64,000 bases of DNA from Phoenix dactylifera (lineage: Eukaryota; Streptophyta; Magnoliopsida; Arecales; Arecaceae): positions 38,869,410 through 38,933,409 of the forward strand of contig NC_052392.1 of assembly GCF_009389715.1 (NCBI RefSeq), read 5' to 3'. Positions 3,727 to 52,239 of the stretch are shown here, piece after piece. The notes below the pieces were generated by a model. It made no database searches and was not told the origin of the DNA. It saw only the letters and a program-made list of their open reading frames with translations. Position 1 is the first letter of the stretch; each line of letters begins with the position of its first letter. The position numbers were made by a program, and so were the translations under genes.

Positions 3727-3806
3727 GAATTGTCTTAAATCTTACCATCCTCAATGTGTGGGGAAGGATCTTTCATTCTTGGAGACAGATGAAGTTTGGA
3801 CTTGTG
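3727..3806 (+). CDS. Exon: PHD finger, first visible part
   Basis: After the acceptor ending TTCCAG the reading is [19 protein letters not shown], then DEVWTC. This is the central Cys-His part of a PHD finger in this family. The exon begins with the last base of a split codon, which fits an Arg codon ending the preceding exon. It ends in phase 1 before GTTAGT, and the Gly codon is completed by the next exon. Confidence 0.85.
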
Positions 3807-12800: not shown

Positions 12801-15800
12801 TGAATGCCAATTTTCTTGCTTCAGACAGCGAAGTACATTTACATTAATTGCACAGTTATCTAAGAAAAGGATCTTGTTTCACATGTCCTTTGCAGTGATT
12901 ATTCGGTAACAGAACTTTGGTCGTATATGTTTTCTTCACTGTAATATTATGTCTGGAAAAACAAACTAAAGATACTCTTATTGGAAAACTCCATGAGTTA
13001 TATTTATAGGCCTGGTTTCTCTTTTTCTGCTTAATTACATATTTATCCGTCTTTTTATGTTTTCCTGAGAAGACAAAATTATCAAATTTCTTTTAGTGAT
13101 TATGTAAAACCCTAACAATATTTCTTTTACATATTTTCTTTTACAATGTAAGAAATTATGTAACAATATTTGATTTTTCTTGCTCTTTTGGCAGGAAGAG
13201 CTTGAGAAAAAGGTCAGAATTGTGCATGAGGATATTACAAATCATGTATGTAATTTTGCGTCTTAATAAATCTTTTTGTTCTTTGATAATGTTAACAACA
13301 TGGTTTCCTGAGTCTGCCTTCCATTTTGGAAGATCAAAATTCATGTTCTCAGAAATTTTAGTTTTGATGATCTTCTTTTGTTGCTATTTTTTGATTTTGT
13401 TCTTTCAAAAGTAATCTTGAAAATTGCAATAATTGCAGCATCATGTAGTCTCATGACTTCCTAAAAATTATGTGCCCCTATGTTTTTTTTTGTAAGAATT
13501 AGTGGATTGATGCAAAACATAAGCCTGGAAACTAGTTCCTTTGTTTAATTTGCTGATTATTCTATATGTTAAGTTTCTCTTTTGCTAATCTAGTTGATTT
13601 CTTCTCAGTGGATTGACAGAGAGATTGTGAAATTACAAAAACTGATTGATCAGGCAAATGACAAGGGATGGCGCAGAGAATATCCTTCAACATAAAAACT
13701 GAAAACACAAATACATGTGCACATGCTATAAAATATGAGAAGTCCATTCATCTGCTGATCTAGCACATTATCATCTCGTACATTTCACTGGCTTAGTTGA
13801 TATGCTTGAAATTATTTTTCCTTGACTTTATGGTACGCTATTTGAGTATATTGACAGAAGAGAACTGCTCTGCACGCCAGCTGAAAGAGCACGCCTTCTA
13901 AAGGAGATTCCACAGGTCATTGCAGATACAGAAGAAGAGGTTGAAGTGATCACTGATACATTACTAGAGTCCCATGGAGAAAATAAAGGTTCACTGTACT
14001 CATTGATTTCTGTTTAGCATTTGTTTTGGATATTTTCTTTTTCCTGGTCTTGAGAGTTTTCAGTTTCTGTATTCTGATCGGTTCTTTTTTGGGTTCTAAT
14101 AGAAATTTCTTTGAGCCCCGACGGTGTGGGCTGTAAAACCACATCTCTTTTTGAGCTGTATGTGGATTCCAATTTTAAAACACTCTTATTTTCATAAATA
14201 TAACCTCTCAAAATAAGAAGGAAAAAATACAGTCTAATAAATGACTACCAAAGAGTATATAAACCAGCAGTTCTAATGCTGCCAGTTTGGTATCCTGGTA
14301 CCATACTATTCTGACAAGAACACGGGGCCTGTGTAGGTGCAGGACACCGGTCTCACCTGAACCAGTATGTACTGACTTACTAGAACGTACCAACCATATT
14401 GGTCCATGCCGATTCCCAGGACATGATGGGAGTTGGTATGCATTAATTCCTTTTTATTCTTGTTGATTCTAATTGTTTCAGTCCATGATGATCATACCAG
14501 TACGTTACTATTTTGGTTAAAACCAACACAGGCCTGGTACTTGTATTTTTAATCTTAAAATAAACTAAATTGGGAATATATTTTTTAAAGTACGACGCTC
14601 AATCTTGATTGATCAGATTTTGGCATATGCTTATTGTTTATCAATAAATCATGTAACTTGCATATGTGGGGATCTCTTCGTATTAACTCTAGTGTGGCAT
14701 GAGTAATGCATGCGGCCTTAGAAACGTGGAAACATGGGTTCATGGAGATTCATGAATGAACTCCCCATCTGTAGTTTGGTTATAGAGTTTACCATGTAAT
14801 ATATGAGCAGCCTGCCCCTATTAAAGCAACTGCACAGCAAGTTTATTGATGTTACAGGTCTTGAAGGTTAACAAGGTTGTTTTGAGTAGCAAGTTGACCC
14901 GATTGTTGTCCTACTAAATTATTATGGGTTTTAAACCAAACTGTGATACTGCAGAAGGCCAAATGTGGAGTCTTGAAGGGAGTCCATATCAATTAAAAAC
15001 TACTCATTATACTTTGAAATAGAGACTCGAAGGATTCAAGGTTTTCGGCAGTTTATAGTTTTATTGTGGTTACCCTGAAAATTTGAAACATTGCTGGAAA
15101 GAGAAGATGATATGATGCAGAGGTGTGAGATGCTCAAATTGAGATACTGATATTTCAAAATGATAATGCTTTAAGATTTCTCAAAACACTGGTTAAAAAT
15201 ATAGGAAGAAATTTCATTTGTCCAGCTTGCTTACTTAAACATTAGTCTTTCTCTTTCTCTGTCCTTTAGCTTTAAGCATTTATCATTTGATAACTTCTAA
15301 TTATTTTCTTAAAGACATTCATTTCTTTTTCATGCATTAGTAAGAATGTTATGGAAGTCCAAGTTTTGGATGTATGTGTTGATGTCTGCATGTGTGATTC
15401 CTGTGACACTCTCATATCAACTGTTATTATGGTTTTGTCTTAAGTAGCTGTTAATATGATTGGCAGGTGGAAACATTGCCATCATGGAAGCCCTGCCAGA
15501 GGAAGCTAAATGTTTGTTCTCCTTATCCAGTTTCTCTCTTGGCCCATTACAGTTTATTTAAATTTTTAGTTTATTGAATTAAAAATGGGTTGGAGTAGAT
15601 TGGGACTTTGATGTCCAGATTTTATATAAAAAGCTCCAATCTAGATGAAAATCCCATGGAAATTGCATTGCTTGGGTATCTCAACGTGATAAAATGACTA
15701 TCAGGATTGGAGAAACAACTAGCCTGTGGATCTTAGAAGGAAATTCTTTCAATCTTGATGGAACGGATTTGATCAAAAGATGGATATGGGGATGGTCTGA

Positions 15801-18800
15801 AGAAACTTATTATAATCCTATGTTGAATAAATTGCCTCTCGACTTCTAGGTGTTAAATTTCCATCTAACAGAAACATGCTTTGCAATTTTTGTTCTTCAC
15901 ATCTTAATTGCAATACATGCTGCCTCTCAAAAGAAAAAGAGGCATGAAGAAGAAGTAAGGAACCCTTTGATTGCTTAAAGGCACAATTACGGACAGAAAA
16001 ATGCAATGTGAGATGGAGGAAAAAATCATGAACTTGTCAGTTCTTTTGAAGAAAACAAAAACTCAGTTGTATAAATTACAATTTTAATTTTAAGACATAC
16101 CCAAAATTAAAAAATATTATTTTTGTTACAATACATCCAATAGCACCCTTCAACTCTTGGAGTCTTGGTAATGATTTTCTAAAAAGGAAAAAATGCACAT
16201 GTTTTAAACTGTTGTAGTGGTATAGCAGGGAATGGAGCGTTCTCTTGTGAAAATGCTGCTGAAGAAAGATCTGAAGGTATGCTTATATGTGTATTTGAAT
16301 TTTTTTTGAATTCTTTGTAAGTAACAATTGCTAGTTATGCAAGATGGAATTAATATCTTCCATAACCTGTTTCAAGCTGCTGCTCTTGTTTTTCTTTGTA
16401 AGATTTATCTGATCTCAACACTTTGCATCTTTGCTTTCTATATTTTAATAAGCTCTTCCTATCTTAATTACTTTAGGGTGCTTAGTCAGCGGATTGTGCG
16501 GTGTTGAATGTTTGTTTTAAGGTTCGCAATCTCGGTATCAGACACCGTATCAGTGCTATATTGGTATAGTGTTGGTACGCTCGATGTAGGGTTGGTTCAG
16601 CATACCGACTGGGTATGCCGCACATACCGAGTATCGGTTTGTTATTGGTATGGTGTAGTATGCCTGTACGGGTGGTATATACCAGTATTGCGAACCTTGG
16701 TTTGTTCTTTTGCTCATAAATCATTCTCTTTTTCCATTCTTCTTAGTCCGCTTATAGTTTGCACTTGTAAACATTTTGGGATTTTCTGTATCATCTTGAG
16801 AATGACACTTTACTATTCGCTCACCATTCTTGGTTTTAAACCACTAGCAATGGTTAATCCTGAAATATAGAAGCACTTGTTGGTGGGATTGGAAAAAGAT
16901 AAAATACTGAAGGGTCCTGGATGTTCCTGTCACCTTATTTTCTTTTTGTTTCCTCTGATGATAACTTGGCCACAGATTTTCTAAACTACTGATATAGGAG
17001 AAAGTTTTTTTTTGTATTCTTTTTCTCAAGTTTTTCGTGAACGCGTCATCTGCAACTCCTCTCTATCTAGCTTCATTCATCATCCAGTAAATTACTGATT
17101 CTTCATTCAATTTTCAACTTGCATTTGTGTTCACATATATTCTTTTCTTCTCTTCCTTCTTTAGCCCTGATCATTTATCATTTGAGAGTTTCTGCTTTCA
17201 AACACATTTCTTTTTATATCCCTAAACTAAGAAAGCTTTTTGTGGCCCAAATTTTGATTATGTTTTCTTCTGACATTTTTGATTTTTTTGTTCTATAATA
17301 TTTTGTTTTTATTTTTTATTTTTTTGAAAAGATCACTTGGTTTATCAGATAGACATAAGCAGTGGATTCAGGTTAAATAACTGTTGTATATAATTAGAAG
17401 GTCTGCATGTGGCTACTGTGGAAGCCCCAGCACAGGAAGCTAAAGGTCTGGATACTTCGCAGATAAACTTGAGAGACTTCCTTGATTCCTCTAGGAATAA
17501 GGGGAAAGTTCCTTTTCTCGTCCTTTCCTTAGCTCCAAGATTGTTGAAACTATTGCTATTGAATCAGGGGAATACTTTGTTCACCTGCTGTCTGAACACA
17601 TCCTTCATTTTTTTGTTTCTTTAGGTTTTCATCCATTGCCCATTTTTTAACTTCATTAAGTGGTAGTCCTTTCACTTCTTTCCCTGTTTTTAGTTTTGTG
17701 CATCTGTTAAACATTTCTGATTGCTTTCTTTCCTCTGTTTCCTCAAAAAAAGATTTTTTTAATGATAGTATAAATTTTACATATATTTATTGAGTGATGT
17801 TGTCTTGATATTTCTTTTTTTAGTATTATTGTATTTATTGATCTATGATATCGGTCGCTTGTTTGTCAATTTTTCATATGCAATGGATTTTGGCTTGAAA
17901 AGTTTTAAATATTATTATAAGTTATGTCGCTCATGAGGAAGTCCCACTATGATACGCTAAAGGTTCATCAAAATATACTTGTTTCTTTAATTTTTAAAAC
18001 GTTATTATGTGCATTATAATCTGGTTCTGTTGTATGAACTAAAAACTGGGTGTACTTGGCTTTGCAAATGCAAGGCTAAAATGTATAAATAAAACTTCAG
18101 TCTAGGTGTATATACCATGGTTCTATTTTTGTAACTGCTTGGCTTAGGCATCTCCTCTGAGGATGAAATGTCTGCCAGAGTTGAAGCAGTCAGGCTTGCA
18201 AACTTAGACAGCCATCTAGACTTGATAGGACAGTTTTTTTATCAAAGAATGCATATGCCATTGTATGCAAATCTTGCCTAAAAAGCTTATTGGATTATCT
18301 TGACCTGCTACCTGTTAAGTTTCCATCCAATGCTATTGTCTAACTCTGCTTTGGATTTTTTGTCTTGATCTCTTGATTGCAATATATGCTGCCTATAGAA
18401 GATGAACATCATCATCATCCCAAAAAGTTGAAAATAAAGGGAGAATTTGCAGAAATTTAAACTTTTGCTCTGGTGTAGCAGGGAATGGAGCTGATTCCCA
18501 TGAGAATGCTGTGGAAGGACAACCTGAAGGTTTGCTTATTTATATATTTTTAAATAATTTCAATTTGAAACATTTGTAACTAGCATAATGATCTTGGGTG
18601 TGATTAACTGTAAACCCTTCTAGAAGCAGAACCTATTTTTTAAAGTATGTCTTGTTGTTGCTGCTACTGCTGCTGCTGCTGCTTTGTAAGCCATTTTGGG
18701 TTTTCAGTTCACATTTTGCTTCTGATCTAGCTTCATTAAACATTTTATTCTATGACTTTTGGATCATAATTACATTCGCTTTTGCTTATTCCCCCGATTG

Positions 18801-19880
18801 TGTGGTAGCCTTTTATCTTATAAATCTCTCATATTCTTTTGTTATCTATAGAGAATCATCATATTAATATCCTTACAGAATTTGTTTTCTTTTTTCTTTT
18901 TTAATTGTATGCTTTATCTTGATTTTTGGGAATGGCATTTAACTGTTGCATTGCCACTTTTTAAACCTTTAAGACCTCTGGTGAGGTTTGATCATTAAAT
19001 GTAGTTGCCAGTAGATGTGATTGAGGAAGATTAACTTCTGAAGGTTCAAACGGTACAATGTTGTGCATAAGCTTTTGGTTCAAGATTTAAAAACTATTTC
19101 TTTTGATTTAGAAGAAGACCTCATCATTGCTCGTCTAAACTTCTCTAGAAACACTTGTGATTTGTGAAGCTTTCTGTCTGCTTTTGAGCTAATTTCATTT
19201 GTAATCTCCATATCACTTCAATCATTTTTTATTTTTAATTTGCTTCTTAAACATGGCATGTCATTAGAAAATTATCTATGTTTCCTAGTCAATATCCCAT
19301 TAATCTAGTTAACAATTAGGAACTTAGCTTGAGTTTTGCCTCCAACTATGAAGCCTTATTGTAGCTGTCTGGATTCAGTCTAAGAGTCCTTTATGCATTT
19401 CTTCCTGTTATTCCAATGCTATTGCAAGTTTTCCAGTTTCTTTTGTATAATTTTCGTCCATGCAACCCTTGAATCTTCTCCTGCTCTTTCTAGATCCTTA
19501 AACACAGATTTGAGTACCTTTCCTTAGGGGGCCTTAGAATTTTATGCACAGGTTCAAACCATGTTTGATTGATTCTCCATTACTTTAGCCCCAATTCATG
19601 CCAGTCTTAGGCCTTCTCCATTAAATACTTATTTCTCACTCCTCCTTTTCTGTTTATGCAACATATCTGTTTCAACATTCATTTTGTCATACCTACTTTG
19701 TCGAAGCATCTATTGCCTAACATTATTAACCATAAGTAGTGCTGGCCATGTTGTTGTCTTACAAGTTTTTTGCTTGTCCTTAGGGTATACATGGATATAG
19801 ACACCACAAAACAACTTGCCCATTTTGTTTACTATGCTCCAATTATATTAGACATGTTTCATCCCCGTCCGCACCTCCGC

Positions 19881-19921
<41 letters not shown>

Positions 19922-22900
19922 CCCCCCGGGGTCTCATGCAGGGTTTCAAGTGCTGGCCCATGTTGGGCCAGTATTGGCATGTGTGCTGGGTTGATACTAG
20001 CATGGAATGGGTGTTTTGGCATAGCACTGCATGTATGTTAGCACGGCACAACATGTTCCTTGCTGGCCTTTGGCCAGCATGTTCCATGCGAACAACACTT
20101 AAATCCTTCGTATCATGTTTGTTGGGCTCTCAGTTTCAGTTTTTTACGTATCCATTACATTTCATATATGTTCCTATTGTTTTTTTACACCTTATCTTTT
20201 AAGATTCCTGCTCATAGTTCCAATTTCACATCTAACCTTGTCCTCTTATCATCAAGCAACTTTACATCATCCACAAATTAGATACACCAAAGCACATCTT
20301 CCAGATAAGTTCACCTTAAGCGATTCAGGCTAGCTTTGGCCCTTGTTGTAACCACAACATGACTTAAAATTCACCTGCTACTGAGAGCTACTTCTCTATG
20401 TACTCTATCCTGTGCTTTGTTGAAGTTGATAGCGACCATTCATGGAATCCTTTCTATACCCTACATCTTTTCATCTATTTCTTAAGAAACATTAGTCTTT
20501 GTATTACCCTTTTTGGTCTAAAATGATAGTTGATTCTCTTAGATTTTGCGTTCTAAACAAGGTCCGCTGAACCGATATCGAAACCCGTACCAGTCGGCGG
20601 ACGGGTTGGTATGGTACTGGTTTGGTATCGTAACGACACACGGTACGGTAAGGCATACTGGCATACTCAATTTTTTTTGAGTTTTTCAAGTTGATTTAAT
20701 TGGTAATCAACTTTTTTGAACTTTTTCAATGATTTTAAGTCTAATTTGATTTTTTTTTTGATGTTTCTATGTCGGCACACTCATTTTTTTTGAGTTTTTC
20801 AAGTTGATTTAATTGGTAGTCAATCTTTTTGAACTTTTTTAATGATTTTAAGTCTAATTTGATTTTTTTTGATGTTTTTTGATGTTTCTATGATCCTGGT
20901 TTAACCTAAATGATCCCTCTTATTGTTTTAAAATGATACAAATCATAAAATGGTTAGTAAGATGTTGCGTGCTACAAGAAGCTACATAAAATATCTTCAA
21001 ATCAAGTAGTGAGGTAAAAAATATAAAATAATACAATCAGTTACATATATTTAAAATGCAACATACATACCGATTTCTAAAATCTCATCGAGTGGCAATG
21101 ACTCTCCTATCTGATCAATCACCTCCTCCATTAGTTTGAGGATGTACGTGGCATCATACACCTAATCAGCAGCAACTGACTTGTGAAAGAAAGTCTTTAT
21201 ATCATAATATGTCAGAAAGTTGATAATAATCTACTTGGTAGGACCGGTCCAACCATCACACACCACCGTCAGTCCATATGTGGATCACTTGTGGGTCACT
21301 TGCTCTTGTATGAGACAATCCATTTCTCTAGCTCCTCATTACTGTCAAGAAGCTCACTATAGATGTTCTTTGGGCCTGGAGGATCTACATTGGGGCCGAC
21401 AGCCTGTATAGCGGAAATGATAGCCCTATAGCACATCTTGTCTACCATATTTGTTGGAATGTGGCTGAAATGAAATCAGGATCTAATAGCTCGCCACATA
21501 TCCTTCTTCTTATTCTTCTTCAGCATTGTGTCAACCTTCTACTGCTTCGAATCTCTGCTAGGAAGGTATGTGGATCTAAAGAATGGATTGCTGCTAAAGG
21601 TGAAATATGTCTGAATGACTTTTTTTTGCTATCAAAAGCCTCCAGCATAGATGTAATACAACTGCCGCCTTTGTTAATGGCCTCCCTGACTAAGGAGGTC
21701 CTTCTGCTCGTAGAACCGGAACCTGACTCATAGTATGAAAGCCCAAATCGAGCCTTATACCTGGCCACCTCATCCTGCTGCCATTGATCATCCACACTCG
21801 CCTACATGGCAGCCTGGATCTGTGCCTCCTTGTTATCCGGAGCGGACGTCTTCTTTAACTCTCTAGAGTGATAGGAAGGTGGCCTTGCCGCTTGGCGGTC
21901 CACCTCCGCCTTCCATTTGGAAACTCTCTCCTTTGCTTTGAAATCAGCAAAGTATTTCTTCGTCAGCTGCCGAAACTTCTGTGGGCATTTTCGGCACATA
22001 GATACGTCAGCAAGGTCGGTAGAACCATCCTGAACTGCCTGGTTTGGGGTATTCCGAGCCATACCGGCTGCGGACCGGGACGGTTTCGGCGACGAAAATG
22101 AGACCGACGCCGAAGAAGTTGAAGAAAAGAGAGGAAGAGAGAGCGGGGGAGGGAGGGAGAGGGAGAGGAAGAGAGATTGGTTGAGGCTGGCTGGGGAGCC
22201 TCCGTGCAGAGGGAGCCGTAGAAGAGGGGATTAGCAATTTGCCAACTTTCACTTAAAAACCTCAAAAATAAAAAGGCCCCCTCCGGCCCCTGTTTCGAAT
22301 GAAACCGGTTCGGACCTTTTTCGGCTAGTTCCAGTCTGTTCGGAACTAGTTCCAGCCGGTTCGGGGCCGGAACCGACTCCATAGGCCGAACCAATCCGGT
22401 TTCCTACCGGGTGGGCTTGATACGGGCCGAACCGGATGGTTCAGTCCGGTTCGGCAATCCTTGGTTCTAAATATTCATTCTATCACTTGTTCCCGCTACT
22501 TTGCTCGTGGCTTATAAGTTTAGTTCCAAAATAATTGGTGCAAATGTGCAATTTTGTATAGCATGTTTATTCTTAAAGACATGTACCTAATACTTGTCCA
22601 GACATTTTTCCTCTTTTCTGCTTGGGCATTGCCTCTCAAGGTCAAGCAGCTATGAAGATTGGAGAAGCTACCAGACTGTTTGACCTGGTTAAGTATTTTT
22701 TCTTGTATAAGCCAGTGTTGATTAAACAGCACCTTTGTACTATATGCAGAACTCTTGCAATCCTAATTCTTTAATAGATGACCATGTATTTGCCAATTCT
22801 TAAGCTTCCATCTATGGTAGCTACATTTGATTATTATGTTTCACTCTCTTGATTGCTATATATGCTACGAAAAGAGGACAAACAGCTTGAAGAAAAATTG

Positions 22901-25900
22901 TCTGACTCACTGCACTGGTGTAGCAGGGAATGTAGCTGCTTTCCATGAAGATGCTGCAGAAGAAAAATCTGAAGGTGCGCCAATTTATATATTTAATTCA
23001 ACATAGTATGAAATAATTTTATGTAATTATTCCTAATTAGGATGGTATAATCATTGCTTGTGGTAACCTTTTATTTTATTGTGTTGCTCACTCTAAATTA
23101 ATTTTTATTCATGGGCATATCACAACTACATGCTTATTTGCTTTCTGGTCACCAGATGATCTCATAATACTGCTGGATCTTAACGGAAGCCCTTCATGTT
23201 CTTTTGCTATGTACTGTCCTAGAGAGCTAATTTATTTTGTTGCTTTCCACGTAGCATACTTTTTTCATCTTGAGAATGACATTTAACTTTATGCTGCTGC
23301 ATTTATGGTTTTTACTGATGGCCTGTCCAAAAATGTAGTTCCCAATTGCTATAGTGGGAAGAATATGAAATGTTGAAGTTTCTGAAAATAAAGTTCCCCT
23401 TTTCCACTGATAATAATGTACAGTCTTTTGGTTTGAGATTTTTGAAATAGTTGTTTCTGAATTCTGATTAAGGAGAAAACTTCATTCATCACTTTTTCTG
23501 AACTTCCTGAAAAAAAATCCTTTGCTTGCTCTTATTGTTCTCTTACCATTAATATTTCAGCTTGTTTCTGGACAGACTAATCTTTCTTTCTCTCCTTGCT
23601 TTTGTCCATGTCGCTCAATTTTTTTTCTTTCTTAAAGCACTTTTTTTGTGGCTTTCCCTGTATTGAAATCTTCAAATTAGCATCTATTTTTCTGGTGACA
23701 TTCTGGTGATATTTTCTGATTTCTATTCTTGTTCTATTCATCAACTTATTTATGGAATGGAGTTTGTCGTAGGTGATTGTAATATGATAAGTGGGTGCAC
23801 CTGTTGCTGATGTGGAAGTCCTGACAGAGGAAGCTAAAGGTTTAGGTTGTTAACCTATACTAGATCAGCTTTTTTAGCCACTTATGATATCAGTAATATC
23901 ATGAACCTAAAGTGGTTGAAATATCATATTGCCAATGCCAAATCAAATGGATTAAATTTCTACCTACATCAATATCATATGAATCTAACTATGTACTGCT
24001 TAATCAGTGCATCTCCTCTCAAGAGTAATTCGCTACGATGTTATACATGAAATATGGCCATGAATATAACAAAATAATGATATGTTGATACGAAAAATCT
24101 TGAAAAATTTCATAAACTCCATCAAGCAAAGCAGGGTAACAAAATGACATAGTCCGTACTTCATACAATTTTATAAACTTCCACAAACTCATCATTTAGT
24201 CAGCTTTGAAATCAATAAACCCTCCACACTTTAATGTCAACATAACAGAATCCAAAATCATCCATTCATTGAAGGTTTACACTATAAAAAGAAAGAAAAG
24301 CTTCCCTCTCTTTCTTGGAGGTATCATGGAAGTACCTTGAGTGAATGCATGAAGTATATAGAACTTTCTTTAAAAAAAAAAAATATATGCTTAACATAAC
24401 TATTGGCATGTATTTTTGACGTATCTGATGAGTATTGATTTCTGATATTGACATGGCATCCGATTTGAAGTTGCTTCCTAGATGGTTAGAGGTGTAATCG
24501 AAATGGAAAACTTAGACAGCAATCCAATCTTGCTAGGACAGATTGTTTAAAGAATATGCTGAGATTCATTGAGCATTGAGTGAAGAAAATCTTATTGTAA
24601 CCCTTACATTTTATGACTTTCCTTCTCTTTGCTTGTGGTTGGGGTTCCATGTAATCTGAATGGTATGCTTTTAGTTATTAAATTTCAATCTCTTCATTGA
24701 ATGAAAGAAAAGAAAAGCATGATTTTTTTTTAATATTTATGTTAATATCTCTAAAAGAAGTAGAATTTTATCTTTTTTAAACTATTGCTTGGGTGTTGAC
24801 AGATAATGAAGCTGCCTTGCATGAAAATTCTGTGGAAGTTAGACCTGAAGGTTTGCTATTTCTTAAGAGTTTTTTTTTTCCTAAGTTCTAGAATCATTGT
24901 AGGTTAGTTTGATGCGATGTTTGCTATGGTTCTTCATTGTGGTATTTTGTTTTAAAGTGTTGTTCTATCTTTTCATTGTAAAATGCCTGATGCCTTTGAT
25001 TTGGAATTTTCTACATTTTAATTATGATCGTTCTAACTTTATTGAATTTAGTATTCAGTTGTTTTTGCATCTTAGTTATATACACTTATGTCATCAGGAT
25101 TTAATGAGTTTGATATTGTAAGTTACTGTTCTTGTATAGATAATTTTCTCTCATCAGTTATCTAGTGTTCTCAAAAGATACAACTTACTGATTTCCACTT
25201 AATATACATCAATGAACTCTTTTTATATCTTATGAGAAAGAAATTTAACATTGCATTGTTGCTTTATGAACATCTGCTGATGGTGAATCCTAAGATGTAG
25301 TTTCTGACTGGTGGGATGGGAAGAAGATTAATTCTTAGAGATTCTACAAGCTAATATTGTCTTTCTTGCTGCTGATAATACGTGGTCTTTGCTTCTTGGC
25401 GTCACTCTTTTTTTCCCCCCAACTTCTTTGTGCACGCATCTTTCATTTTCTGACTCCTTTTTTAAGCCAGGTTTGCTCATTATTCACTTATCTGATTTTT
25501 ATTATCCTTTTTTTATTTATGATTTACTTAAACAGGAGTCATCAAGCTAGACTTGTTCCTTTTTCTGGTTGAAATGGATTAAATAATTTTTCCACATCGA
25601 TGTTTTGAACTGTTATAGGTGTTTGAATCTGCCCTTGTAGATGTCTGGTTAACCATTTAGCTTAATTAATACCAGTATTCCATGTTCCTGTCTAGGAATT
25701 GGTTAGTATATGGATTTCCTCCCTGGATCAAATGAATCTTATGTGGGTGAAACAATCATTCTGGGCACCTTAGTGTGTTTGCACTAAGAAGACCACCTAG
25801 AGTCTTAGCAATCGAATATTGGTAGCTCAGGTGTGATAAAGAAGAGACATCTTGGCCCAGGGTGTTGGAGTTCTGGTCTACCTGTTGTGTAAAAGTCTCC

Positions 25901-28900
25901 TTTATTTTGCTACTTAATGTGTCTCTCTCTGATTTTGATGGTTTGACATTGTCTTTATTGTAATTAATACTACCTAGAGGGGTAACAGAACTGTGGGAAG
26001 GAAACCCTTATTACTTCAGACACTCTTGATAATAATATCCATAGAAAAAGAAGAATCACATAATGTCTTTGAACTTTAAAATGTTGCTCTGGTATATCAG
26101 GAAATGGAGCTGCTTTCCATGAGATTGCTGCAGAAGAAAAACGAAAACATTTGCCAATTTATATGAATTTACTTATTCAAACTAAGTTCAAACACTTTGT
26201 ATATAAACCTTAAGTTTGTTAGATATTGTTCTAAAGGAATCAACCTTTTTGTTTAGTTAGTTTTGCCTTTTTAATTTCAAGCCATCTCTTCCTAAATTAA
26301 GTCATTGCTTCTCTCATGTCATACGCACTCTATTCTCTACTTCATCTCAAGCTGTTAATTCCTTTGTGGATCTTTTGGGTTTCTGATGGAACATGTGTAT
26401 GTGTTAGTTCTCTTTCTAATTATTTTAGTTTTACAACTGCACTGTTGTTACTTTGATTGTTTTTTACATCTGGTCATTTCAGTTAAATCTTTTCTTTTGT
26501 TATTTGCCACTCTTAGATTGACTGTTCAAGACAAGTAAGATACAATTTTTCATAGTTTCTAGTCAGTTCTTACATTGTGCAAGGAATTATCATTCCATTT
26601 GAATTTGTTGTACTTGTACTTTTCTTTTTCTTTTATATTTTGTGGAAGAAGAATTAGGCTGACTACTAAGGGATTGCTATTAATTTTGTCATTCATCCAG
26701 CCAAATTACTTGAGATTACTTTGCTTGAAACTGAACAATATTAGTAACAAGCTCACCTGATTCTTTCTAATCTGCTTTGGGGTTTATCTCTCTCTCTCTC
26801 TCTAATTTGGCTAGGTTTAAAGACTTAGTATTGCTTTGTTAATTCTCAAATCTGCCTTCTGAAAGTGTTATATGTGTTTTGGCAGGGAATGAAGCTTCTT
26901 CCTATGAGGCAGCTAATAATGAAGAAGTTGAAGGTTCTCATGACTCAACTTCTTTTCCTTTCCATGGTTAATAAATCTTTTCCATTCAAGAATCTAAATG
27001 CTGCTATCCTTGACATGATAGGGATGGGAGCTTCACCAAAAGTCACTGGACAACTTGGCATAGGTGGAACTCCTACATAATTCTTGATCAATATTTCAGA
27101 CTTATTTTCTTGTTTAGAAGTGCATTTATATGCAGTGGCCTATTAAGTATGCGGTATGCCATGTCAGATGTCTAGTCAGGTAGAAATGGGTATTGCTTAG
27201 TTAATGTTGGAAAATTTATCATGTGAAGCCAGCTTAGCAGTTGGTATCCTTGGAGCTAGAAGTTCACCTGATAGGGACTGGATCTTCTTTGTCTGATGAC
27301 TGCATATGTTGTTGTTCATCTGCTTGTTTATTTCTTGGGAGATTCTGTTTACATTCTAAAGTATGTCATGGCTTCAGTTTGTGTCAGTTATTAGATACTT
27401 CTTTTGCTAGTTTCTTTTTGCAATTATTGCTGTCTTTTCTTATCTGATAGAGTTGATATCTTAAAAAACTAAGAAGCTGCTGTTAATGAACTAGTGGGGA
27501 ATAGAATTCTCTGTATTAAAAATTTAAATGCAAAGAGCCTGTATTTCTCTAATCTGTTAGGACTGTTTACGAGCAATATATTTTCTGTGAATTTTTAATA
27601 TTTTGTTGGCATGCCCAATCTTCGTATCCACATGGGCCTCTCCTGAAGGGTTAAGGAATCTGATATTCCAAGTCATTGAGATTTATGGCTTAAATGAATC
27701 ACAAGCTTTGAACCTAGTTTTTTTCTCATCATTTCTCATCTGCAGTTTGTATTTTAGGCATTTAATTGTTGCTATTAGATCTTTTGCTGGCTGATAAAAG
27801 GGGAAAAACATGTTAAATATTGTCAGTATTACATATGTTTCCAATGCAACCCCAAGTTCGGAAGCTAGTTATGGCTAGGATGTTCCAAATGGTTGTAGGC
27901 ACTCACCAGCAATTCGCTTCCATCCCTTACAATATAGAACTTGTTTTATATAATTATCTTCAATAGATTTTGTTATCCAAGAGGAGATTCCTTAATGCCA
28001 TTTATTTAGAAATGATAGTTGGTGTATTTATGGACGAAGTACATGATGAGGCTTAGGTTTGAATTTCAGGAGGAATCAGTATGGAGCAAAGGTTTGCTAC
28101 TAGTTGGACCAGAATATGGTGCATGTAAATTAGAATAAGGGGCGAGAGATCCCACCATTCTACATAATTTTGAAGAGAAACAATTTATGTACCATGTATT
28201 GCAGTTGTATTATGGGGCTGCTTTTCATTTGGCTCATTGGCTTATTTGTGCCTTTGAGATGAACACAGCTTCTTAAATCAAAAGTTATCATCCTCCACCT
28301 TCATCTAGGCTCTTTCCAAGTTTAGTCAACTTCAATGGGTTGTTCTTTGCGTGAGCTTAAACTGCAATCAATAATGTAGATCTTCCTTTCCACCATTAGT
28401 CATCCAGGTTTCATGGTAGGCCACTCTGTTGCTTAGATTTGCCTTTGCTAAAATTTTGGCACCAATTTCTAGAGAGTTGATTTAAGGTTGACAGCGGATG
28501 GTAAAATCTGTTCAATCTATTGAGCCTTCTCAACTTTGAGTCGTGCCCTATAGTCAACCAGATAGTTGTCAGGGAACAGCTTGGTTTGCTACGAAAGAGA
28601 ATTACCCTTAATTTGAAATCCAAAATTTGACTATTACATTCAAACAAAAGTGGCGTTAAAATTTAACCGTCTTTAAAGAAAGCGTGCAATTGAATATAGT
28701 GCAAGTAAAGGTGCATTACAATTCATGAATCTTAAAAAAAATTTAATTACTAAACTTTGAATCATGGTTGGCCTCACTGTACTGTACTGGCCTATGCCGA
28801 CACTATACTAGCATGGTACTTATATATGTACTGAAACTGGTAATCCAAGCATTGCTTGAACATTGCCTATTTGCATAAACTACCTTCATAATGCAAACAA

Positions 28901-34900: not shown

Positions 34901-36707
34901 AATGCACATCCAATGGGGACATGGTATGCAGTTTTGAGTTATCTGTACTTCATATCTAATTAGCCTTATGGAATTAGTTGGATTTAGGGGATATGATTAT
35001 GATATAGGGCTCTTGAGATTTAAATTTAGAGGTCTGGTGAAACATATGGATAAATTTGAGGTATCCTAGAACTTCTTCACTGACAAAAAATTGTTTCAGA
35101 CTGAAATGTTTGGAGCAAAAGAATAAGGATCTACAAGAATCTGCTGGATTTCTGCCTTTGTTTTACAAGTCTAAGGTAAAAACTAGGTTGTTACTGGTTT
35201 CCTTCAGAAATAGAAGTGGTTTAGAAGTTAACCAGAAAGCATAGAAGGAACATGATAGCTTAGAAGCTGTCATCGTAGGAGTTCTTACCTAGGTCTGCAT
35301 GAATCAGGTGCATATAATCATTATTGAAAGAAGAGATCGACAACTTCTCAAAAGATTTAAGTGTATCTTACACAAGGGGACTGACTGGGACTGATCAACA
35401 TATCAGCAGATTGCTGGTACCTTCTAGCTTTCGGAACACAAAACACAAAAGTGAAGAAACCCTTCTTCCCAAGAAGAAAATAAAAGCTGACCCGTGAAAA
35501 AAGGTGAAGGAACTTAAAACTTTTGATCCCTGTGGGAATCTGTAGACAGACACCTAAAACACTCAAAAACTCAGTCTAAATTGTTCTAGCAATTCCTGAG
35601 CTGCCGAGCTATGGCTTAATCGAGATATTAGACACTAATCTTTGTCAAAAGGATCTTAAAATATATGCTAAAGGCAATGCCAATCAAAGGGAAAAAAGCA
35701 TACCTACTGTTTCATTCTCTGCTAATGGATGACCTTAAAGATTATATGAAACCCATTGATTCTCACAAGAAGTCCTGGTTTTTATTAGGAATTCTTTTTT
35801 TGGAGTTAAACGCAATTCAATGTGGGGGTCCTGCCAACCTGTTTTAATAGGCCGCCTAAGTGATAAATGGAACTTCAAAACACTGCCTTAATTCTGGAAC
35901 AACAATATTTGACCTCCTCCCTCTCCTCCTCATCTTTTGATCAGTCCATTCATATAATTTAAAGCTTCCATTTCATTTTCCTCCTTTCTTTCTTGTTTTC
36001 AAAGAAAAGTTGAGCAAAGCTCAACCGCATTAGTTTCTCTCCTTTCATCTTCTTACTGCATGAAGGTTTCCGTTATTGCTATTACCATTTCTATTATTAT
36101 TATATTTTCTGTTGCAACCTGGCTTAACACCATCGTGCCTTTATATCTCATATTTAATGGCACAACAGTTTGGACCATGAATACAGAAAGAAAGCAGTAG
36201 CTATCTCTTGTAGGTATTGCTTTTCCGTATTGCCATATTGTCTGCATTACGTATTTGTGTTCCATGGAGGAAGAGGGATAGTCCTCACTCAAAGTGACAT
36301 TACTCTTCTTTGCAGAAAGTGAGCCACTCAAGTCTAGTGTAATAAACGAAAACAGCAACACCAGCCGGATAATTGAAATCGTAGAGGATGAAGAAATTCT
36401 AAGGTACAAGAGGACTGCAGATGTACAGATAATTGATTTAGATGAAGATGAAGAAGACTGCTTGGCTGCCTTGAAGGAAAATGACCCATCAACAGCAGAT
36501 ACTTGCTATGAGATTGTGGACGCAATGATCTCTGAGAGGCAGAAAGTATGGAACTATATTGACCCTTCAGGGAATGAACAGGGACCGTTTGCATTGGCTT
36601 CACTGAGATACTGGAAGGAAGAAGGCTTCTTTGATGATGACTTCAGAGTGTGGAGAACAGGTCAATCCAAAGAAGAAGCGATCTTGTTGATGGATGCTCT
36701 CCGTTAA
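3727..36707 (+). CDS. PHD-SWIB-Plus3-GYF domain protein (NERD / ZC3H44 / At5g08430-like), 5' partial
   Basis: A large spliced nuclear gene. Proposed exons: 3727-3806, 4289-4479, 7998-8886, 9224-9345, 9629-9688, 13195-13245, 13609-13679, 13837-13988, a micro-exon array (15467-15511, 16229-16276, 17401-17445, 18482-18529, 22927-22974, 24803-24850, 26886-26933) and 36316-36707. Phases agree across every junction and give roughly 775 residues plus a missing N-terminus. Domain order is PHD finger, SWIB, Plus-3, acidic repeat linker and C-terminal GYF. In plants this architecture defines a small family that includes NERD, which links histone/Argonaute binding to RNA-directed DNA methylation; other members are poorly characterised. 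The PHD would read histone tails, Plus-3 binds nucleic acid or RNA polymerase-associated partners, and GYF binds proline-rich ligands. No CCCH finger follows the GYF, so this resembles the short At5g08430-like branch. Introns are swollen by transposons. Identification rests on motifs; exon borders are inferred from splice signals. Confidence 0.88.
4289..4479 (+). CDS. Exon: PHD finger C-terminal / extended zinc-binding part
   Basis: It starts after TGTGATAG and completes Gly, then reads [18 protein letters not shown] followed by further Cys pairs (CRNC, CNNC). The Cys-rich extension after the PHD is typical of the PHD-SWIB-Plus3-GYF family. The donor is GGG|GTAACA, phase 0. The next exon continues naturally as [19 protein letters not shown]. 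Confidence 0.88.
5730..6080. mobile_element. hAT-type MITE, CCGGTACC-rich (351 bp)
   Basis: GC-rich, GTACCGGT-rich island in an AT-rich intron. The ends are inverted: left ATGGTATGCTGTACTGG against right, reverse-complemented, AAGGTATGTCGTACCAG. Flanks TTGGACGC (5722-5729) and TTGGACAT (6081-6088) match at 6 of 8 positions; both differences are transitions, as expected for an old 8-bp target-site duplication. The open frames across it are by-products of base composition. Confidence 0.6.
6542..6839. mobile_element. hAT-type MITE, TCTCGG-rich family (about 298 bp)
   Basis: The right end is TTAAAAACCTTG. The left end is degraded (TAGTTTTCATCTTGG) but aligns with the reverse complement of the right end. 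The interior is rich in TCGG/CCGA and GATAT. Flanks AATTTACA (6534-6541) and ATTTTACA (6840-6847) match at 7 of 8 positions. Confidence 0.5.
7998..8886 (+). CDS. Exon: SWIB domain and start of Plus-3 domain
   Basis: Begins after TTTGCAG with [19 protein letters not shown]. The SWIB/MDM2 fold is encoded at about 8280-8530, running from [17 protein letters not shown] through [18 protein letters not shown] to the [13 protein letters not shown] helix. An acidic Asp-rich linker (about 8540-8605) follows, then the Plus-3 domain opens with [15 protein letters not shown] and [10 protein letters not shown]. The donor lies inside GTGACAG|GTACC at 8886, phase 1. An open frame continues to 8963 but runs into the intron. 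The next exon supplies the conserved [12 protein letters not shown]. Confidence 0.9.
9224..9345 (+). CDS. Exon: Plus-3 domain
   Basis: After ATACCAG it reads (G)[19 protein letters not shown] and ends SDDDFEE before GTATTC. This is the central beta region of Plus-3. Phase 1 in, phase 0 out; 122 bp. Confidence 0.88.
9629..9688 (+). CDS. Exon: Plus-3 domain
   Basis: A 60-bp exon after TTGATAG encoding [20 protein letters not shown], followed by donor GTGAGT. Phase 0 on both sides. It continues the Plus-3 fold. Confidence 0.85.
9689..13194. other. Intron with SINE and possible organelle-like segment
   Basis: A 3.5-kb intron. It holds a tRNA-type SINE (about 12151-12295). The segment just before it (about 11690-12060) differs in texture: mixed GC, no poly-T tracts, resembling plant mitochondrial spacer DNA. 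That is only an impression. No coding exon was found. Confidence 0.5.
12151..12295 (+). mobile_element. tRNA-derived SINE (Au-like)
   Basis: It opens GTGAACCTTGGCATGACAGT (A-box region), then has TGCACCATTATGACTTGGAG and a degenerate B box GGTTTGAAAA at 12202-12211. ACGGAAACAACCTCTTTGCA and GGATCCTCGTGCGCTGAGCT follow, ending near a short T-rich tail. This order matches the widespread angiosperm Au-type SINE as I know it. Base changes in the B box suggest an old, inactive copy. Confidence 0.72.
13195..13245 (+). CDS. Exon: Plus-3 C-terminal helix
   Basis: A 51-bp exon after TTGGCAG encoding [17 protein letters not shown], donor GTATGT. Phase 0 on both sides. It is the start of the helical tail of Plus-3. 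Confidence 0.87.
13609..13679 (+). CDS. Exon: Plus-3 helix, ends at AT-AC intron
   Basis: After TTCTCAG it reads [20 protein letters not shown] and then WRR plus GA of a Glu codon. There is no GT at the end of homology; the sequence turns directly into ATATCCTT. The Glu codon is completed by the first base at 13837. See the U12 intron entry. Confidence 0.87.
13680..13836 (+). other. U12-type AT-AC intron (157 bp)
   Basis: The 5' end ATATCCTT (13680-13687) is the consensus 5' splice site of minor-spliceosome AT-AC introns. TTCCTTGAC (13818-13826) matches the U12 branch-site consensus TTCCTTRAY and lies about 11 nt before the terminal AC (13835-13836). Removing exactly this segment restores [15 protein letters not shown] in frame, as expected in Plus-3 relatives, whereas the unspliced reading hits a stop almost at once. 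No GT-AG alternative gives this junction. Confidence 0.88.
13837..13988 (+). CDS. Exon: end of Plus-3 helical region
   Basis: It starts immediately after the AC acceptor. It completes Glu, then reads [20 protein letters not shown] and [17 protein letters not shown], ending ESHGENK plus one base before GGTTCAC. Phase 1 out, so it joins in frame to the micro-exons or directly to the GYF exon. Confidence 0.87.
13989..15466. other. Intron with decayed GGTACC-type repeat
   Basis: No exon seen. About 14280-14530 contains CCTGGTACCATAC, CCGGTCTC and GGCCTGGTAC motifs similar to the hAT-type MITEs elsewhere in the window, but no matching ends or target-site duplication could be read. Confidence 0.4.
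15467..15511 (+). CDS. Micro-exon A1 of the tandem array
   Basis: A 45-bp, phase 1/1 exon after TTGGCAG encoding (G)[14 protein letters not shown]. The donor AAAT|GTTTGT is weaker than the AAAG|GT of the sister copies because the last exon base is T. It aligns with A2 (17401-17445) and A3 (23795-23839), sharing GAAGCCC and GAGGAAGCTAAA. Confidence 0.65.
16229..16276 (+). CDS. Micro-exon B1 of the tandem array
   Basis: A 48-bp, phase 1/1 exon after TATAGCAG encoding (G)[16 protein letters not shown] with donor GAAG|GTATGC. It is the first of six type-B copies; both splice sites are intact. Confidence 0.75.
16518..16699. mobile_element. hAT-type MITE (182 bp)
   Basis: The ends are inverted: TAAGGTTCGCAATCTCGGTA on the left against CAAGGTTCGCAATACTGGTA for the reverse-complemented right end. 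Flanks GTTTGTTT (16510-16517) and GTTTGTTC (16700-16707) form an 8-bp target-site duplication with one mismatch. The interior is rich in GGTATAC/ACCGA. It lies in the intron between micro-exons B1 and A2. Confidence 0.82.
17401..17445 (+). CDS. Micro-exon A2 of the tandem array
   Basis: A 45-bp, phase 1/1 exon encoding (G)[14 protein letters not shown] with donor AAAG|GTCTGG. The acceptor TTAGAAG has AG but a poor pyrimidine tract, so inclusion may be weak. It is homologous to A1 and A3. Confidence 0.55.
18482..18529 (+). CDS. Micro-exon B2 of the tandem array
   Basis: A 48-bp, phase 1/1 exon after TGTAGCAG encoding (G)[16 protein letters not shown], donor GAAG|GTTTGC. The upstream intron shares TCTTGATTGCAATATATGCT with the introns before B1 and B3. 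Confidence 0.75.
19882..19920. repeat. Poly-C homopolymer (39 bases)
   Basis: A run of C from 19882 to 19920, followed by G and six more C. The flanking sequence (about 19930-20100) is rich in GCTGGCC/GGCCAGC and resembles a dispersed repeat. Open frames across it encode only Pro or Gly runs. The exact length is likely unreliable. Confidence 0.85.
20130..20557 (-). mobile_element. LINE reverse-transcriptase relic (downstream half)
   Basis: Read on the minus strand, with stops, it gives a decayed MPGRS-type segment, then [17 protein letters not shown] (20397-20440, the counterpart of the plant LINE DLEKAYDRVPREV motif), then [12 protein letters not shown] (FVDD at about 20263-20277, the catalytic YADD/FADD box). 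This is the reverse transcriptase of a non-LTR element. The tail may continue to about 19310. The upstream half is at 22472-22565, separated by the hAT insertion. Confidence 0.75.
20558..22463 (-). mobile_element. hAT element with decayed DUF659-type transposase (1906 bp)
   Basis: Ends CAAGGTCCGCTGAACCG and, reverse-complemented, CAAGGATTGCCGAACCG. Perfect 8-bp target-site duplication GTTCTAAA at 20550-20557 and 22464-22471. Minus-strand pieces form a broken hAT-like transposase: a linker with [16 protein letters not shown] (about 21870-22060), [13 protein letters not shown] and SGSGSTSRR segments (21520-21795), then [12 protein letters not shown], a stop, and [17 protein letters not shown] (about 21175-21270), the DUF659 core of plant hAT transposases. 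The C-terminal dimerisation domain is not visible. The ends are CCGG/GGTACC-rich and the right part has a GA-rich tract. Non-autonomous today. Confidence 0.9.
20661..20893. repeat. Two-copy tandem repeat inside the hAT element
   Basis: About 115-bp unit repeated twice (20661-20774 and 20775-20893). Both contain TTTGAGTTTTTCAAGTTGAT and AATGATTTTAAGTCTAATTT, differing by a few substitutions and T-run lengths. It lies just inside the left end, where hAT subterminal repeats often occur. Confidence 0.8.
22472..22565 (-). mobile_element. LINE relic (upstream half, split by hAT)
   Basis: Minus-strand reading gives [19 protein letters not shown] and then VIE, the counterpart of the plant LINE stretch CTNYRGIKLMSHTMKLWERVIE. 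It joins in order to the segment beyond the hAT element once one copy of GTTCTAAA is removed. This confirms that the hAT jumped into an existing LINE. Confidence 0.75.
22927..22974 (+). CDS. Micro-exon B3 of the tandem array
   Basis: A 48-bp, phase 1/1 exon after TGTAGCAG encoding (G)[16 protein letters not shown], donor GAAG|GTGCGC. It is closest to the dead copy B5 (26101-26148), sharing AGCTGCTTTCCATGA. Confidence 0.75.
23795..23839 (+). pseudogene. Decayed micro-exon A3 of the tandem array
   Basis: The region homologous to A1/A2 would encode (G)[14 protein letters not shown] with an intact donor AAAG|GTTTAG. The acceptor AG has mutated: where A1 has GGCAG|GTGG this copy has AGTGG|GTGC. 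An upstream AAG would shift the frame. It is probably skipped. Confidence 0.6.
24803..24850 (+). CDS. Micro-exon B4 of the tandem array
   Basis: A 48-bp, phase 1/1 exon after GTTGACAG encoding (G split) [16 protein letters not shown], donor GAAG|GTTTGC. Splice sites intact. Confidence 0.72.
26101..26148 (+). pseudogene. Decayed micro-exon B5 of the tandem array
   Basis: The acceptor TATATCAG is intact and the body matches B3 closely (AGCTGCTTTCCATGAG), but the donor GAAG|GTTTGCC has become AAAC|ATTTGCC, losing the GT. The CTGAAG end is also changed. It would not splice normally. Confidence 0.7.
26886..26933 (+). CDS. Micro-exon B6 of the tandem array
   Basis: A 48-bp, phase 1/1 exon after TTGGCAG encoding (G)[16 protein letters not shown], donor GAAG|GTTCTC. 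It is the last and most divergent type-B copy, followed by the 9.4-kb intron to the GYF exon. Confidence 0.75.
28763..28854. mobile_element. Possible decayed hAT-type MITE (about 92 bp)
   Basis: It starts CATGGTTGGCCTCACTGTAC and ends near CTGGTAATCCAAGCATTG, with GTACTGGCC and GGTACT inside. Flanks CTTTGAAT and CTTGAACA only partly agree. It is called by resemblance to the clearer copies. Confidence 0.3.
30436..30684. mobile_element. hAT-type MITE, CCGGTACC-rich (249 bp)
   Basis: Left end CAAGGTCCGCCGTACCG; reverse-complemented right end CATGGTCTGCCGTACCG. Perfect 8-bp target-site duplication TATAGAGC at 30428-30435 and 30685-30692. The interior is dominated by GGTACCGGT palindromes, so the single strand can fold extensively. 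Its end sequence is very close to that of the 1.9-kb hAT element at 20558. Confidence 0.92.
30698..30810 (+). pseudogene. ycf2: Nuclear plastid DNA fragment: ycf2 piece
   Basis: The reading [20 protein letters not shown], then [14 protein letters not shown], matches the plastid Ycf2 protein near its ATPase-like region. Homology begins at about 30698 and stops near 30810, after which the sequence is unrelated to ycf2. It is a short, non-functional plastid-derived insertion (NUPT), or a plastid piece that came via mitochondrial DNA, since about 30830-31050 also looks organelle-like. A hAT MITE sits right beside it. Confidence 0.82.
32240..32454 (-). mobile_element. hAT-type MITE, GGGATG/TCCC family (215 bp)
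   Basis: It begins CAAGGACTCAAGTCCTGACA and ends GGATTTAAAACCTTG, and is the reverse-complement relative of the 215-bp copy at 52025-52239. GATGTGTT (32229-32236, three bases before the element) and GATGTGTC (32455-32462) are a likely target-site duplication with a small left-border change. The interior is rich in GGGATGT/CATCCC. Confidence 0.78.
36316..36707 (+). CDS. Last exon: acidic linker and GYF domain
   Basis: After TTTGCAG it completes Glu and reads [14 protein letters not shown], an acidic stretch ([15 protein letters not shown]), then the GYF domain [20 protein letters not shown] with RYWKEEGFF and VWRTGQS, ending ALLMDALR-type (ILLMDALR) and stop TAA at 36705-36707. The W-x-Y-x-D-P-x-G-x-x-Q-G-P-F signature for proline-rich ligand binding is intact. 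Phase 1 in, matching all micro-exon donors as well as 13988. Confidence 0.92.
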
Positions 36708-39503: not shown

Positions 39504-39983
39504 ATGATGCCAACCTCCAAAACTCTATTGGTTTTCCTCCTGATCTCTTCCCTTTCCCTATCATTCACAGAGGCCCTGGTCTCCGACGCCCCGTCGGCCT
39601 ATGAGATGCTGGAGAGGTTCAGTTTTCCCAAGGGGATCCTCCCAGAGGGCGTGCGGAGCTATACACTGAACCAAGATGGAAATTTTGAGGTATTTCTGAG
39701 TGGAGACTGTGAGTTCAAGGTGGATGGTGGATACTTGTTGAAGTACCAAAAGAAGATCACAGGGAAGGTGGAGTCTGGCTCGCTCACCAATTTGAGAGGG
39801 GTAAATGTTAAGGTCGTCTTCATGTGGTTTGGCATTAATGGAGTGGTGAGGAGTGGCGGAGATCTAAATTTCTATGTTGGTCCACTCTCTGCATCGTTCC
39901 CCCTCTCCAACTTTGAAGAGTGCCCGAAATGCCACTGCGGCTTTGACTGCACCGCCGCCGCCGCCCTGGTATCAGATTCTTAG
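39504..39983 (+). CDS. DUF538 family secreted protein
   Basis: A single-exon 159-residue protein. Residues 1-24 (TLLVFLLISSLSLSFTEA) form a signal peptide. The DUF538 body follows: SAYEMLERFSFPKGILPEGV, then a beta-rich region with FEVFLSGDCEFKVDGGYLL, ITGKVESGSL, VKVVFMWFGI and LNFYVGPLSASFP, ending in a Cys cluster (ECPKCHCGFDC). Length and order are typical for this plant-specific family, whose biochemical role is not settled; lipid-binding or pectin/chlorophyll-related roles have been proposed. The first ATG is used, with a second two codons... directly adjacent (MM), so the start is ambiguous by one residue. The tandem 144-bp repeat forms its immediate upstream region. Family assignment is firm, function unknown. 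Confidence 0.88.
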   Translation: MMPTSKTLLVFLLISSLSLSFTEALVSDAPSAYEMLERFSFPKGILPEGVRSYTLNQDGNFEVFLSGDCEFKVDGGYLLKYQKKITGKVESGSLTNLRGVNVKVVFMWFGINGVVRSGGDLNFYVGPLSASFPLSNFEECPKCHCGFDCTAAAALVSDS

Positions 39984-45263: not shown

Positions 45264-45345
45264 TGGGTTCTCTTTTTCTCGTTCTCTCTCATTCTTTCTA
45301 GAGTAGTAGCAGGCGGAGGAGGAGGACAGCAATCATCGTATTCCC

Positions 45346-52024: not shown

Positions 52025-52239
52025 CAAGGTTTTAAATTTCGTGGGATGAGGCTGTCCCATTTTTTCTATGGAATGGGATGCGCCGCTGTCCCGCCCCGTC
52101 TCGACACTTAGAACAGGGAATGCCCCAAGACGTGCCGATCGAGATGCTGGAACGATGGTGGGACGGTCTTGCCCCGACACATGGGATGGTATTCCGTCGT
52201 GGTGTCCTGCGGGATGTCCCTCCGGAACTTGAATCCTTG
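52025..52239 (+). mobile_element. hAT-type MITE, GGGATG/TCCC family (215 bp)
   Basis: Starts CAAGGTTTTAAATTTCGTGG and ends GGAACTTGAATCCTTG. Perfect 8-bp target-site duplication GTATCAAT at 52017-52024 and 52240-52247. Same length (215 bp) and family as 32240-32454 in opposite orientation, sharing GGGATGTCCC-type interior and CCATGG/CTATGG-like blocks. Confidence 0.93.

Follow-up and report, generated by a model that had tools for sequence, protein, structure and literature searches.

How does a gene come to hold a run of very small exons between two of its domains, and what could such a run do for the protein? The question is raised by a stretch of 64,000 nucleotides from the date palm Phoenix dactylifera (assembly GCF_009389715.1, contig NC_052392.1, positions 38,869,410 to 38,933,409 of the forward strand), hereafter the window. 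Its translation reveals a gene resembling At5g08430, with SWIB, Plus-3 and GYF domains. A preliminary description, made from the letters of the window, had placed nine exon-like modules of two kinds, A and B, between the Plus-3 and GYF exons. We find ten such modules there. The explanation that we favor, and consider quite probable, is that a pair of exons (A and B) was duplicated in tandem, that some copies then decayed, and that the modules form a frame-neutral acidic tether of changing length.

The modules and their presence in protein models

Two proteins served as references: P0001, "uncharacterized protein At5g08430-like isoform X3 [Phoenix dactylifera]", the representative of a cluster of 13 sequences, and P0002, isoform X4 of oil palm. 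Each palm species is thus represented in the comparison by a single isoform model. Residues 32-810 of P0001 are exactly identical to the translation of the window exons together with A1, B1, B2, B3, B4, B6 and C, and its first 31 residues are matched exactly by a peptide encoded about 2.1 kb upstream of the window. Because of these two identities the window gene appears, as far as can be told, to be the locus of the P0001 model. The modules are the following:

15467..15511, + strand: A1, 45 nucleotides; in P0001; donor AAT/gtttgt; in P0002 as GGNVAIMEVPPEEAK
16229..16276, + strand: B1, 48 nucleotides; in P0001; a gap in P0002
17401..17445, + strand: A2, 45 nucleotides; AG and GT present; homologous to A1 and A3
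17866..17966 (also delimited as 17863-17967), + strand: dead fourth A copy; core of about 41 nucleotides, frame broken, upstream intron homology
18482..18529, + strand: B2, 48 nucleotides; in isoform X3 from 18479 (51 nucleotides) via an upstream acceptor
22927..22974, + strand: B3, 48 nucleotides; in isoform X3 from 22924 (51 nucleotides) via an upstream acceptor
23795..23839, + strand: A3, 45 nucleotides; GG at the homologous acceptor; absent from P0001; peptide in P0002
24803..24850, + strand: B4, 48 nucleotides; in P0001 and P0002
26101..26148, + strand: B5, 48 nucleotides; donor GT lost (AAC/atttgc, AT for GT); absent from P0001
26886..26933, + strand: B6, 48 nucleotides; in P0001 and P0002
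27022..27063, + strand: C, 42 nucleotides, phase 1-1; in P0001; in P0002 as GMGAAPKVSGQLVI

The span given to the array, 15467-26933, is exact, from the start of A1 to the end of B6. As described, all nine modules (three A, six B) measure 45 or 48 nucleotides, are in phase 1 on both sides and contain no stop codon. The tenth, C, had been overlooked; it belongs to the same run of small phase-1 exons and has no visible kinship to A or B. The dead fourth A copy had been overlooked as well (nhmmer E-values of 4.9e-5 with the A60 profile and 3e-7 with the A200 profile). Phase symmetry extends to 10/10 modules, all multiples of three in phase 1-1, two of them lacking a splice site. Their sizes of 42, 45 and 48 nucleotides, or 51 with the upstream acceptor, stay within the limit set for plant microexons (51 nucleotides or less).

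Six of the nine modules first reported are exons of the P0001 model, and a seventh, A3, is recognized as an exon by its peptide in P0002. The oil palm protein holds the peptides of A1, B2, B3, A3, B4, B6 and C in that order, without B1. The claim that any subset of modules can be included does not hold for the date palm, since B5 has lost the GT of its donor and A3 lacks the acceptor AG of its relatives; at most 7/9 are therefore usable. For A3, an AG 3 nucleotides upstream and a GT 6 nucleotides downstream would preserve the frame. The P0002 peptide agrees with A3 at 12/15 residues and continues with GL, which is consistent with use of the GT six bases on. B5, whose best match in P0002 is the B3 peptide, is probably dead. 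The pattern N-x-A-x-x-x-E-x-A-x-E, ascribed to the B peptides in general, is found in four of the six (B1, B2, B3 and B5); B4 and B6 depart from it.

TAGCAG acceptors of the NAGNAG type precede B1, B2 and B3 (16223-16228, 18476-18481 and 22921-22926). At B2 and B3 isoform X3 takes the upstream AG, while the peptide of oil palm X4 fits the downstream one. In the 27 bases that lead up to the AG, the share of pyrimidines is only modest (0.41 to 0.59); weak sites, if that is what this reflects, would fit the skipping of modules. The intron between B2 and B3 contains a run of 39 C (19882-19920), a possible weakness of the assembly.

Homology of the copies and origin of the array

The modules were searched for by leave-one-out nhmmer over the 64-kb window. 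All nine held-out modules were recovered, with E-values of 6.7e-7 to 1.5e-24 when flanks were included and of 7e-4 to 2e-11 for the exon alone. Among the matches printed, the best outside the modules had E-values of 0.19 or worse, save the dead A copy near 17863-17967, which reappeared at 3.8e-6 to 3.4. The homology proposed for the modules is thus well beyond chance. It holds within each kind: A profiles against B copies, and B profiles against A copies, gave no match at E-values up to 10. The resemblance of A and B peptides is visible by eye only, so a common origin of the two kinds is at most possible. The B copies are 52-79% identical to one another at the exon level.

Self-comparison of the window bears out the claim that the flanking introns are also homologous, and collinear between units. 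Homologous intron stretches lie before A (15243/17138), before B (15881/18350/22826 and 18200/24508) and after B (16791/23265), and 15707-15931 is a second partial copy of the pre-B stretch (nhmmer E-value 8e-8). Between the unit regions and the other introns and flanks of the window, matches are mostly only 15-23 bases long. Exon homology together with collinear intron homology upholds tandem exon duplication that included the introns.

At the start, a gene of the At5g08430/ZMP-like family would have had an ancestral exon pair between its Plus-3 and GYF exons: one small A exon and one small B exon, both in phase 1. Tandem duplication of the pair with its introns would have given the order A1 B1 A2 (dead a) B2 B3 A3 B4 B5 B6, followed by C. 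The duplicated unit was probably the exon pair with its introns, roughly 2 kb. On the simplest reading of the sequences, several duplications would predate the divergence of the two palms, because A1, B2, B3, A3, B4, B6 and C all have ordered counterparts in oil palm; A copies would have been lost afterwards. Copies were later broken, as observed at the B5 donor, at the A3 acceptor and in the dead A copy. The linker had been described as growing: gain by duplication stands, but this is one-sided, the array displaying loss as well. Every module being a phase-1 multiple of three, insertion, loss and skipping all keep the frame.

Properties of the linker and its possible role

The linker was rightly called acidic: over its 111 residues in isoform X3 there are 26 D/E and 5 K/R. 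Between the well-predicted Plus-3 and GYF parts, residues 552-752 have an AlphaFold predicted local distance difference test score (pLDDT) below 50; the model suggests a linker that is probably disordered or flexible, with the reserve that thin alignment in this region may explain the low pLDDT, which makes disorder supportive only. Date and oil palm linkers are 84% identical (93 aligned residues, 35 gap columns), against 90-97% for the PHD, SWIB, Plus-3 and GYF regions; identity drops further, to 79%, in the acidic part of the last exon.

Proline-rich peptides are the ligands of GYF domains. For RTF1, binding of single-stranded DNA by the Plus-3 domain is reported (PMC9699677). Modules would set the distance and the charge between the two domains, and splicing choice and duplication would both alter the length of the tether, the former as annotated isoforms suggest for wheat and Aegilops, and by extension for the palm. 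Length would then probably determine how far a Plus-3 domain that binds nucleic acid can be from a GYF domain that binds peptides.

Linker repeats in other flowering plants

The best 120 of 345 protein matches were tested for linker repeats. Proteins were dropped when the alignment to P0001 ended before residue 535, when the GYF match score was below 80 or when the linker had fewer than 30 residues, which removed 34 and left 86 with both anchors. A linker was counted as repeated when its self-alignment was better than all 30 shuffles with a z score of at least 5. By this measure repeats are present in 42/86 linkers and in 0/86 control regions between the zinc finger and SWIB, the control region being shorter than most linkers and compared with 20 shuffles, not 30. 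Ten of the other 44 linkers beat all 30 shuffles with z below 5 (two of them from Zingiber), and one control region (P0092) beat all 20 shuffles (z 2.9).

The 42 repeat-bearing proteins come from 26 named genera and two unnamed sequences; many are isoforms or close relatives and hence not independent. Nine of them (Prunus, Malus, Fragaria and Malania) have no precomputed Pfam GYF match and were anchored on a diverged GYF-like end. If such a match is required, repeats remain in 33/71 relatives. Musa, Curcuma, Canna, Typha, Ananas, Nymphaea, Nelumbo and maize are without clear linker repeats.

Among non-palm proteins the palm B profile exceeded its best shuffle (6.4) only in P0034 of Anthurium (11.3 bits) and P0035 of Magnolia (7.6 summed bits); P0040, also of Magnolia, equaled it. 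The palm A profile found nothing above shuffles outside palms. The palm profiles miss the units of wheat and yam, so homology of these units with the palm modules is not shown. A protein search centered on the linker returned the two palm proteins only.

Alternative inclusion had been proposed for the modules. For the date palm the comparison covers isoform X3; partial support comes from wheat and Aegilops isoforms that differ by blocks of units, in a comparison of eleven protein pairs, some of which differ at further places too. Wheat X6 and X7, annotated on contigs of equal length, share 881 identical residues, and what separates them is one 18-residue unit plus 13 residues that end another unit. 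The same kind of difference separates Aegilops X7 from X8, and another Aegilops pair is distinguished by one 19-residue unit. At the level of protein models, these differences are the best evidence that units may be skipped as exons. The linker of Dioscorea alata P0009 contains several nearly identical 15-residue units of the type GGNVAVESPSKDLES, which suggests a recent expansion. D. zingiberensis P0038, P0060 and P0096 have no linker repeats under the criterion, and P0033, one of the dropped proteins, has a two-fold repeat by eye.

Alternative explanations

Chance resemblance or an artefact of assembly has only the short length of the modules in its favor. The leave-one-out E-values, the divergence of the B copies (far from identical) and an oil palm protein with the same module order all speak against it. 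We rejected chance repeats on the 9/9 profile recoveries, and regard this explanation as having practically no chance of being right. The same is true of a mutually exclusive cluster, with one copy per transcript: homologous exons in tandem would recall such a cluster, but five B copies are joined in one protein, the P0001 model of isoform X3, and mutually exclusive exons were rejected on that ground. It is unlikely, though by no means to the same degree, that all intact modules are constitutive and alternative inclusion is of no consequence. Isoform X3, with six of the nine reported modules and C, would agree with constitutive splicing. Against it stand oil palm X4, which has A3 and lacks B1 (in another species), the unit-block differences of the wheat and Aegilops isoforms, and the NAGNAG acceptors of B2 and B3, at which X3 and X4 differ in the AG chosen.

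Near-neutral growth is the strongest competitor, and we would put it just short of an even chance. Tandem duplications in long introns would make extra copies, tolerated as frame-neutral in a disordered linker, and linker length would have no regulated role. This shares its anatomy with the tether and differs from it only in function, so confidence in the one overlaps with confidence in the other. Uncorrected ratios of nonsynonymous to synonymous differences (pN/pS) among date palm copies are 0.91 for B (five copies, without B5; 0.81 with six) and 0.82 for A (three copies). Values of 0.8-0.9 give little sign of sequence constraint, while the frame is kept. They favor near-neutral growth, as do the two damaged copies and the dead remnant, the lower identity of the palm linkers relative to the domains, and the 44/86 relatives below the repeat criterion, Musa, Curcuma, Canna, Typha and Ananas among them. 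Pointing the other way, 8/10 modules retain frame, AG and GT, seven module peptides are common to oil palm in the same order, and repeats that recur in 26 named genera call for a reason, for which mutational bias could serve. We infer tuning of the tether by splicing; near-neutral growth fits the observations about as well.

Besides the weak constraint, several points weigh against the tandem A+B duplication and tether that we favor. The "isoform X" names of P0001 and P0002 presumably mark them, by NCBI convention, as computed models. A2 is in neither protein (its best match in P0002 is the A1 peptide). The A+B unit is deduced from three clear A copies and one dead copy, for six B. A direct repeat of about 83 bases, 72% identical, joins 24118-24200 in the array to 34598-34677 in the last intron; it lies outside the units, so not all repeats in the array are units. 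To these are added the limits given above for the control region, the 34/120 dropped proteins and the pLDDT scores.

A wider proposal would make the Plus-3/GYF linker of ZMP-like proteins a general hot spot, where small phase-1 exons multiplied independently across flowering-plant lineages and splicing sets the reach, so that a presumed regulator of small interfering RNA (siRNA) and methylation would have a tunable, lineage-specific tether, perhaps through conflict with transposons. We consider this improbable. If the linker repeats of other flowering plants are exon arrays, this linker would offer a good natural system for asking whether the tether length of a chromatin regulator matters or drifts.

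Relation to known systems

Arabidopsis ZMP (AT5G63700) is reported to bind Pol IV and to influence both siRNA and DNA methylation (PMC9699677). The part of this article available to us describes no exon array or linker repeats, and its main text does not mention monocot, linker or isoform. The preliminary description knew of no account for the family, and our own search agrees: none was found for At5g08430/ZMP-like genes in the literature searched, where coverage of subscription journals is limited. Tandem exon duplication is known in kind, and the array appears new for this family within that literature.

Grass CENP-C is, from the accessible portion of PMC549713, close in several respects: it is a plant chromatin protein of varying size, whose weakly conserved middle region contains an ancestral exon pair that has undergone repeated tandem duplication as well as deletion. 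It is another gene, with two or three copies of the pair against ten small exons in the palm, and positive selection was reported there. Titin PEVK, as far as the consulted sections of PMC6469411 go, likewise is a linker encoded by rows of small repetitive exons, with gains and losses through duplication; the protein is one of animal muscle, has about a hundred exons of this sort (113 annotated in human, 99 in mouse) and uses them as a spring. Plant microexons (PMC8831610; MEPDB, PMC12409088) are defined as coding exons of 51 nucleotides or less. In the text available from these two sources exons of 1-15 nucleotides are treated, and SWIB, GYF and tandem are absent from both main texts. Wheat TaPHD145/162/179 (PMC9791960) have the same domain order, PHD-SWIB-Plus3-GYF; the available text leaves linker repeats unmentioned and does not contain the word isoform.

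The array is a clear plant case in which domain spacing changes as tiny frame-neutral exons are gained, lost and probably skipped, and intact, damaged and dead copies coexist in one gene. Gene models of the At5g08430/ZMP-like family may be incomplete in the linker stretch.

The remaining exons of the gene

When the seven upstream exons are joined to 13837-13988 and to the last exon, 36316-36707, the reading frame stays open:

about 2.1 kb before the window: first coding exon, by the match of its peptide
3727-3806, 4289-4479, 7998-8886, 9224-9345, 9629-9688, 13195-13245 and 13609-13679, + strand: upstream coding exons; open joined translation identical to P0001
3727..13679, + strand: content of these exons, a Cys-rich zinc finger region, SWIB and Plus-3 (the latter two by Pfam)
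13680..13836, + strand: AT-AC (U12-type) intron, ATATCCTT ... TTCCTTGAC ... TAC
13837..13988, + strand: last exon before the array; ends in phase 1, AAAG/gttcac
36316..36707, + strand: last exon, with an acidic stretch, the GYF domain (Pfam) and the stop codon; identical to P0001

The order SWIB, Plus-3, GYF is confirmed by Pfam matches above cut-offs (PF02201, PF03126 and PF02213). Pfam PHD has no match on the part of the protein encoded within the window. The zinc finger region, Cys/His-rich by eye, gives a weak PDB match to the histone methyltransferase chain 2naa_A (E-value 6.2e-4). Joining across the AT-AC intron is required by the identity with P0001. By eye, the models of maize P0110 (..KEYP..) and Colocasia P0036 (..REYP..) seem to read into the same intron.

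Paralogues and other features of the window

At least six Plus-3 places were found in the 773-Mb date palm genome. Three loci besides the array gene, on contigs C2, C5 and C209, have a GYF match within about 6-11 kb of Plus-3. These three loci contain no A or B modules, the best match having an E-value of 0.018 on the opposite strand. Their open frames at GYF are 864 to 1073 amino acids long, and we take them to resemble larger NERD-type genes. Between the Plus-3 and GYF matches of the C2 locus, L019:7129-7702 is a tandem repeat of units about 82 bases apart and 78-85% identical.

Within the window, a Pfam scan of the antisense reading frame 21802-22230 gave no match. An inverted repeat pair, 80% identical, lies at 32288-32454 and 52025-52191. 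By Pfam, the neighboring genes encode a DUF538 protein (39504-39983), a pentatricopeptide repeat protein (45310-47004) and a Core-2/I-branching enzyme (59432-60121).

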